This document shows positions 38,585 to 40,852 of a stretch of 64,000 nt of DNA, piece after piece. The stretch is from Eubacterium sp. Lineage in GTDB: Bacteria > Bacillota > Clostridia > Oscillospirales > Acutalibacteraceae. The DNA lies in the NCBI GenBank assembly GCA_029258375.1, contig JARHZA010000002.1:253001-317000 (forward strand), given 5' to 3'. The stretch's first letter is position 1; every line of letters begins with the position of its first letter. Under the pieces are notes generated by a model that was given only the letters and a program-made list of their open reading frames with translations, ran no database searches and had not been told where the DNA came from. Made by a program: the position numbers and the translations under genes.

Positions 38585-38929
38585 TTATTGGTTCGATTTC
38601 AGCCAAATACTGTTTGCTCTGTTTAAAACTACTAAACAATAAGAAAGTCTATTGTTAACAACATCTTTTGCAAGTGCAATATGTCTTGAAACAGTTGGTT
38701 GTGAAAGATGTAGTTTTCTTGATATTTCAATTTGGCTTAAATTTTGAACATATTTCATTTTTAGGCAGATTCTCTGGCGTTCTGTTAATTCATTTTTCAG
38801 AATAAGGGGCAAAACACATTCAACTGCATTTTTACTCACTTTCTGCGTATCAATGTCAGAGTAATCAAAAATATTTTGATTTACATAATAATTTTCAATT
38901 AAATCAATCATTTTCATCCTCTTCGTCAT
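38585..38929 (-). CDS. Small sigma-70 region 4-like DNA-binding protein
   Basis: HTH LTERQRICLKMKYVQNLSQIEISRKLHLSQPTVSRHIALAK; no region 2 visible. Confidence 0.8.
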   Translation of the reverse strand: MTKRMKMIDLIENYYVNQNIFDYSDIDTQKVSKNAVECVLPLILKNELTERQRICLKMKYVQNLSQIEISRKLHLSQPTVSRHIALAKDVVNNRLSYCLVVLNRANSIWLKSNQ

Positions 38930-39119
38930 AGTAATGGGTCAGCAGTGTAGAAATACATTTACATTCACACGCCATATTGTAATAAGTTTTAATTTTAGCT
39001 CTTAATTTGTATAAATCTTCGCCGGTGTAAACAGATAATAGAGGTCTTAATCCATCCATTTTTGCGTTTAAGTTGTTATACTGTTTTTCGTATTCACTTG
39101 CAAGTTCATCAATAGTCAA
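38904..39119 (-). CDS. Small protein of unknown function, first gene of a two-gene operon
   Basis: 71 aa, TTG start, AAGGG upstream, 26-nt overlap with the HTH gene. Confidence 0.65.
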   Translation of the reverse strand: MTIDELASEYEKQYNNLNAKMDGLRPLLSVYTGEDLYKLRAKIKTYYNMACECKCISTLLTHYYDEEDEND

Positions 39120-39189: not shown

Positions 39190-39218
39190 ATAGTAATAGA
39201 ACAAATGTTCGTTGTCAA
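39190..39218 (-). promoter_or_regulatory. Predicted promoter with embedded LexA/SOS-box-like palindrome
   Basis: Minus strand TTGACA-N17-TACTAT; spacer contains CGAACATTTGTTCT (39198-39211), 13/14 to the Gram-positive SOS consensus CGAACRNRYGTTCG. Confidence 0.75.
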
Positions 39219-39376: not shown

Positions 39377-39405
39377 TTGACAAATTGTACAAATTAGATT
39401 ATAAT
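39377..39405 (+). promoter_or_regulatory. Consensus sigma-A promoter
   Basis: TTGACA (39377-39382)-N17-TATAAT (39400-39405). Confidence 0.85.
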
Positions 39406-39410
39406 TCAAT

Positions 39411-39511
39411 TAACTTGATGGCAGAGCCGCAACCGCCACAAGTAATTTTGTCCTCCGACAGTTTGTTATAGACAGAGAGGGAAAGGCAGTGTGTTAACAC
39501 TGCCTTTTTCT
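39411..39511 (+). ncRNA. Candidate small RNA, about 100 nt, family unknown
   Basis: Consensus promoter immediately upstream; 5' stem ACTTG(A)TGGC/GCCACAAGT (39413-39443); ends in terminator AAAGGCAGTGT-gtta-ACACTGCCTTTTT; no convincing ORF. Confidence 0.6.
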
Positions 39512-39706
39512 TTTGTTGTTAAAATGTACTAAAGATTTATAAATATTTTATAATAATTTAACAACAAAATTTTTGACTTTTTCGTTTATAGGTTGTAAAA
39601 TATAACTTTGTATTAGAAAAGATTATTATATTTGTTAAATGTTTAGATGTAATACGCATAATATATTTTTAGATAATTATTAGTTGTTTATTGCAGAGAG
39701 GGAAAT

Positions 39707-40852
39707 ATGGAACGAACTCATATTAAAATTGATTTAGATAAACTTAATTATAATATTGATAATATTATTAAAAAAATTGACGGCAAGGCAAAACTACTTG
39801 TTGTTGTTAAGGCAGACGCCTATGGCCACGGAGCAGTTCAAATTGCAAGGGAGTTGCAAGATAAATGTGATTTCTTTGGTGTTGCTTGTATCGAAGAGGC
39901 AGTAGAACTTTTAAAGGCAGGAATTAAAACTCCTCTTTTAATTTTGGGCTATGTTTCTCCACAAGTTTATGAAACAGTTGTGGAAAATGATATACGTATT
40001 CCTGTATTTACATACGAAGTTGCAAAGGCACTTTCTGATGAAGCAGTAAAGCAAAATAAAATTGCACATTTCCATTTTGCTGTTGATACTGGTATGAGTA
40101 GAATTGGTTTTCAGTGCACAGAAGAAAGCGCTGATGATTGTAAAAGAATTTGCGAACTCCCAAATATTTGTGCAGAAGGAATTTTTTCTCATTTTGCAAC
40201 TGCAGATGAAGCAGATTTAACAAAAACTATAAACCAAAGAGAAGTGTTTAAAAATTTTGTTGAAATGCTTGAAAAAAGAGATGTAAATATTCCAATCAAA
40301 CATATGAATAATTCAGCAGGTATAATGAATTTTGATGAATTGTTTGATATGGTTCGCTCTGGCATTATAACTTATGGTATGTATCCAAGTAATGAAGTAG
40401 ATAAATCACTTGTTGATATTAAGCCAATAATGAGTTGGCACGCTATTGTTAGCCATGTTAAAACTCTTGATGCAGGCAGAGAAATTAGTTATGGTGGAAC
40501 TTACAAAACTTCTGAAAAAAGAGTTATTGCAACAGTGCCAGTTGGTTATGCAGATGGTTATCCAAGGTGCTTATCAAATATAAGTAAAGTTATTATAAAC
40601 GGTCAATACGCTAATATTGTTGGCAGAATTTGTATGGATCAGTTTATGGTTGATGTAACAGATATACCAGATGTTCACGTTGAATCAGATGTAACACTTA
40701 TTGGCACACAAAATGATAAAACAATTACAATGGAAGATATTTCTGAAACTGCTTATTCATTTAACTATGAACTTTCTTGTAGAATTTCAAGACGTGTTAC
40801 AAGAATTTACTATAAAGACGGTAAAGAAGTAGAAAAAGTAAACTACTTATAA
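39707..40852 (+). CDS. alr: Alanine racemase
   Basis: LLVVVKADAYGHGAVQIAREL PLP-lysine motif; C-terminal MDQFMVDVTD. Confidence 0.96.
   Translation: MERTHIKIDLDKLNYNIDNIIKKIDGKAKLLVVVKADAYGHGAVQIARELQDKCDFFGVACIEEAVELLKAGIKTPLLILGYVSPQVYETVVENDIRIPVFTYEVAKALSDEAVKQNKIAHFHFAVDTGMSRIGFQCTEESADDCKRICELPNICAEGIFSHFATADEADLTKTINQREVFKNFVEMLEKRDVNIPIKHMNNSAGIMNFDELFDMVRSGIITYGMYPSNEVDKSLVDIKPIMSWHAIVSHVKTLDAGREISYGGTYKTSEKRVIATVPVGYADGYPRCLSNISKVIINGQYANIVGRICMDQFMVDVTDIPDVHVESDVTLIGTQNDKTITMEDISETAYSFNYELSCRISRRVTRIYYKDGKEVEKVNYL

Follow-up and report, generated by a model that had tools for sequence, protein, structure and literature searches.

The window, as we call the whole stretch of 64,000 nucleotides analysed here, contains on its forward strand a small RNA of ~100 nt (39412..39512, presumed start site first), preceded by a sigma-A promoter TTGACA-17-TATAAT (39377..39405) that agrees with the consensus at 12/12 positions, as do the promoters in 70 of 75 homologous loci. 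The RNA consists of a 5' hairpin, P1 (39413..39443), assigned by covariation and closed by the loop GCCGCA (39426-39431), a near-invariant core GUCCUCC...GUUUGUUAUAGACAGAG (39450..39477) and an intrinsic terminator (39480..39514) with the stem AAAGGCAGTGT/ACACTGCCTTT and a C/T-rich tail. The core includes the anti-Shine-Dalgarno (anti-SD) hexamer UCCUCC (39451-39456), which is found in 74/74 homologues; based on the alignments and on complementarity to the ribosome-binding site (RBS) of amt, the gene for an ammonium transporter, in relatives, we propose the core as an antisense seed. The next gene on the same strand is the alanine racemase alr (39707..40852; TIGR00492, E 2.4e-110), which we regard as a neighbour only. 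On the opposite strand lie c1 (38904..39119), a syntenic neighbour that encodes a 71-aa protein of unknown family, and c0 (38585..38929), which encodes a 114-aa protein with a sigma-70 region 4 domain (PF08281, E 6.5e-10). The gene c0, with its partner c1, adjoins the RNA in 67/75 loci, even where their relative position is altered. A LexA-type box GAACAAATGTTC (39199..39210) belongs to this divergent c1-c0 pair and travels with it, in agreement with the "SOS-like operon" that had been read from the sequence alone. Control of the RNA itself by LexA was considered and rejected: the box tracks c1-c0 and is missing near the RNA where c1-c0 is missing.

Most of what the sequence-only reading had said about the RNA was borne out. 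The promoter is exact, and the segment 39412-39513 folds with a minimum free energy (MFE) of -39.6 kcal/mol compared to -22.1 +/- 3.3 for shuffled sequences (z -5.4; 0/200 shuffles equally stable). The MFE fold contains both the bulged stem ACTTG(A)TGGC/GCCACAAGT and the terminator at 39482-39510. The suggested CCTC/GAGG pairing, however, is absent from both the MFE and the consensus structure; instead, the homologues favour a helix P2, composed of C/UUGUC...GACAG plus UAUA/UAUA with CUCC bulged out. P2 is itself weakly supported, because it is nearly invariant in one subgroup of homologues (alpha) and missing as such from the other (beta). The hairpin of the window copy is slightly degenerate, with an A-C mismatch in place of the loop-adjacent G-C pair, and our covariance model R1 scores this copy at 80.9 bits.

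The proposed check of homologues for covariation gave a clear answer. Among 41 aligned members the covariation score is 0.445 versus 0.191 in shuffled alignments (0/500 as high), 94.9% of cells in the consensus structure are paired, and 23/35 pairs have changed on both sides; when the structure is slid along the alignment, pairing falls to 43-54%. In P1, 9/10 pairs exhibit both-side changes over both subgroups, with 97.7% of cells paired and 0/500 shuffles reaching its covariation score, while the GCCGCA loop is retained in 69/74 homologues. Compensatory changes were also found in 11/15 pairs of the terminator (41 members). Between the hairpin and the terminator lies the near-invariant segment UCCUCC(U)AUAGUUUGUUAUAGACAGAG.

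Of 98 relatives searched with BLAST, 42 yielded the element, all of them members of the same genus; with the covariance model, the tally for that genus rose to 74 of 80 genomes. Beyond the genus, a single genome, G532 from a neighbouring genus, has a close copy with identical gene neighbours. No further close member emerged from model searches that covered 396 genomes from the order, 349 from the family and 288 from the class; weak members may have been missed, because stricter filters applied wherever more than 40 genomes were searched. The matches of model R1 in other families of the order are terminator-like where their sequences were read (e.g. L051, L055), with the exception of G228; none of these terminator-like matches is recovered by the core model R2. 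A scan against Rfam 15 returned 0 matches over the gathering threshold in the 64 kb, in line with the sequence-only reading, which had recognised no known class; sub-threshold matches vary from stretch to stretch and were dismissed as chance. We conclude that the RNA is real, previously uncatalogued and present in nearly every species of one genus.

The prediction that no credible ORF is present also stands. The window copy does contain a 17-codon ATG-ORF (39418-39471, read by eye), which might hint at a gene for a very short peptide, but 62/74 homologues lack a closed ATG-ORF of at least 8 codons. Indels in P1 break any reading frame, hence no ORF is conserved, and these indels together with the paired substitutions match an RNA rather than codons, so that we find a peptide gene scarcely conceivable. 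The sequence-only reading had left open two options, a trans-acting sRNA or a leader that terminates upstream of alr. A role in cis, as a riboswitch-like leader or attenuator of alr, would be compatible with the position of the RNA, which precedes alr by ~195 nt in the same orientation, and with the same-strand alr found downstream in 22/75 loci, in 19 of which it starts within 800 nt. In the remaining loci, however, the downstream gene has another identity or orientation, whereas a leader is expected to precede a fixed class of gene; moreover, alr possesses its own promoter-like site (39573-39601), and the terminator ends the RNA in all aligned members. An alr leader is therefore highly improbable. 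Since the RNA comes with a promoter and a terminator of its own and with a covarying structure, is kept in 74/80 genomes and has alr downstream only in a minority of loci, we regard it as an independent sRNA, and it is the first of the two options that survives.

The first lead towards a function came from two weak secondary matches (L045, L120), which turned out to be antisense to leaders of amt. We then searched 80 genomes for GTCTATAACAAACTRTMGGAGG, which is complementary to the core, allowing at most 3 mismatches. Only 7 non-self matches were found, 6 of which lie directly upstream of amt and overlap its Shine-Dalgarno (SD) sequence (G005, G015, G014, G017, G019 and G022); the seventh is in a second small RNA. 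The RNA:amt duplexes have calculated energies of -42.4, -39.3, -38.2, -36.4 and -36.2 kcal/mol, compared to a mean of -16 for control start regions, although part of each energy is unspecific, because any UCCUCC pairs with any SD sequence. The pairing with amt is better than that with all 32 control start regions in 18/50 genomes, and it is not separable from the controls in about half of the genomes with amt. A genome-wide search with the pattern AYAAACTATRGGAGR hit, besides amt, mostly unrelated places.

Changes in the RNA are in several cases mirrored in the amt leader. In G021 and G471, which share the deviant core/leader variant UAAUGAUUUGUU, the RNA reads UAAUGAUUUGUUAU and amt reads AACAAAUUAUUAGGAGGA / UUAUAAUAAAUCAUCAGGAGGA. 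In the beta group, the variant AAUGACA (G028, G018, G469) is mirrored by UCAUUA in amt, and AAUAACA (G008, G452, G458) by UUAUUA or UGUUAU; unmirrored variants also exist (e.g. G053, G043). The RNA and amt of the same genome pair better than permuted partners in both groups (223 and 170 of 20000 permutations, or about 1% in each, did as well; kinship is not fully controlled in this comparison). There are also genomes with an intact core in which amt was not detected (e.g. G003, G031, G047), therefore amt cannot be the sole reason for the conservation of the core. In G022, model R1 detects no RNA, while the amt leader, CUGUCUUUAACAGACUACAGGAGGA, carries an intact antisense site (L199, G022:C4:118794). 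This leader sequence predicts that G022 encodes a divergent RNA with a core close to UCCUGUAGUCUGUUAAAGACAG.

The window's own genome (G000) yielded 0 matches to amt at 98.5% completeness, and the core in the window reads GACAG where the consensus of the genus is UAUAG. With amt absent and the seed drifted, the RNA must therefore either serve other targets in this species or be losing its function. Among the genomes without a detected amt, the core has drifted in G000, G033, G030 and G035 and not in G031, G032 and G047; an association between amt loss and core drift is thus only suggested by the sequences. We scanned 759 start regions of this genome, taken from 800 kb of contig C2 and the window (about half of the genome). 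The best-scoring one, at -31.8 kcal/mol and 5.7 below the next, belongs to a gene (L250, G000:C2:60099, minus strand) that we take, from reading its sequence, to encode a MetE/YxjG-like methionine synthase. This pairing is statistically marginal, as 12/300 shuffled-tail cores do as well (the best of the 300 reached -34.4 over the 759 start regions), and the gene is a weak candidate for a predicted target in this genome, a lead rather than a finding.

Taken together, the sequence comparisons make it likely that the RNA is a trans-acting sRNA with its own promoter and terminator and an antisense seed that covers the RBS of its targets, with amt as the clearest case. Its transcription would start at the strong sigma-A promoter and stop at the terminator described above. 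The covarying hairpin P1, whose GCCGCA loop is fixed, may be a structural or recognition module, and the segment UCCUCC...AUAGUUUGU...ACAGAG may act as the antisense seed that includes the anti-SD hexamer. This seed could pair over up to ~25 nt with the RBS of the target mRNA, most clearly that of amt, and by analogy to established sRNA biology such pairing would block ribosome entry and lower amt translation. Since the core can pair with the amt RBS in many species, the RNA probably switches off amt together with other genes; as to the physiological signal, nitrogen status is our guess. The features expected of a trans-acting sRNA are in place: promoter and terminator of its own without an ORF, conservation independent of the flanking genes, and a seed complementary to target start regions, namely to that of amt in relatives.

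A refinement of this explanation, to which we give somewhat less than even weight, is that the RNA is an anti-SD sRNA whose regulon is broad, with amt as one member, and that it is mainly a metabolic regulator like RoxS/RsaE. The universal presence of UCCUCC, the retention of the core in genomes without amt and the MetE/YxjG-like start region at the top of the own-genome scan speak for it, but the last of these is marginal and drawn from about half of a genome, and amt is the only conserved long match found genome-wide. It is a good deal less likely that the RNA works through protein binding, as a scaffold or a 6S-like decoy, and that its likeness to amt is incidental or a minor second role. 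Such a function would account for the intact core where amt was not found and for a GCCGCA loop that is invariant without an obvious target, and the lack of a fitting Rfam class also speaks for it; yet it fails to explain why amt start sites account for 6/7 of the non-self matches to the core complement, or why changes in the RNA are mirrored in the amt leader. The trans-acting antisense sRNA thus remains our preferred interpretation.

The closest functional parallels to the RNA are NfeR1 and RoxS/RsaE, and by the tests made it belongs to neither. RoxS and RsaE of Bacillus and Staphylococcus are likewise short, independently transcribed sRNAs of Firmicutes, and they pair with SD regions via C-rich motifs, as we propose for the RNA of the window. 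In contrast to them, the latter has another hairpin, a single UCCUCC within a long invariant seed and amt as the predicted target, and the RsaE/RoxS model (RF01820) has no match in the window. NfeR1 (alpha-r14) of rhizobia is an anti-SD sRNA of three hairpins that is tied to nitrogen metabolism and blocks the RBS of ntrB (PMC10746234). Three CCUCCUCCC motifs lie in unpaired parts of its hairpins (PMC10746234), whereas our RNA has one UCCUCC and ~20 nt of further complementarity; the distribution of NfeR1 is alphaproteobacterial, unlike that of our RNA. FuFi-1 (RF02986) scores 21.9 against a gathering score of 59.6, which does not support membership. The RNA represents a new family, probably with a mechanism of a known kind. 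Base-pairing sRNAs are poorly described in little-studied Clostridia-like lineages, and the predicted target with mirrored changes on both partners makes this one directly testable; if the prediction is true, it would represent sRNA control of ammonium uptake through a covered RBS, with drift of the seed where the target gene was lost.

A sister sRNA also came to light; in at least 13/16 loci (L121-L136, e.g. L124:1541-1620, plus strand) it is divergent from lexA, and it consists of a GCCGCA-loop hairpin followed by UCUACCCUCCUCAAUAUACCCCUCAAG and a terminator. Its distribution covers at least 8 genera within the family (8 of the 50 genera sampled gave matches); as far as tested this sRNA is not in Rfam (the copy from G228 scores 18.4 against RF01820, gathering score 79), and we found no name or description for it. 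It resembles the window's RNA in the GCCGCA-loop 5' hairpin, the C-rich middle and the terminator, and differs in the middle sequence, UCUACCCUCCUCAA...UACCCCUCAAG, in its neighbour lexA and in extending to other genera of the family. From these sequence features the two RNAs probably share an ancestor, and the sister family suggests a wider clan.

The second small RNA mentioned above lies between a larE-like gene and putP (L231:571-668, plus strand; L196:958-1059, minus strand) and comprises a promoter, a hairpin, the anti-core CTGTCTAAAACAAACTATGGGGGA and a terminator. It was found in only two genomes (G013 and G017) and could be a sponge of the window's RNA, similar to RosA, the known sponge RNA of RoxS (PMC8216469). 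In the window's own genome the sponge model hits C3:126802, which proved to be a terminator following an HxlR-like gene. More speculatively, and with considerable doubt on our part, the GCCGCA hairpin might mark a clan of riboregulators of this clostridial family, one type beside lexA and the other beside the LexA-box sigma-like operon, whose hairpin would be recognised by an unknown RNA-binding protein or partner; the RNA of this genus would then have become specialised for regulating ammonium uptake through a long seed, co-evolving with its target and opposed in some species by a sponge RNA that is dedicated to it and lies next to putP. The c1-c0 pair itself, kept behind its LexA-type box across the genus, represents an uncharacterised SOS-type operon.
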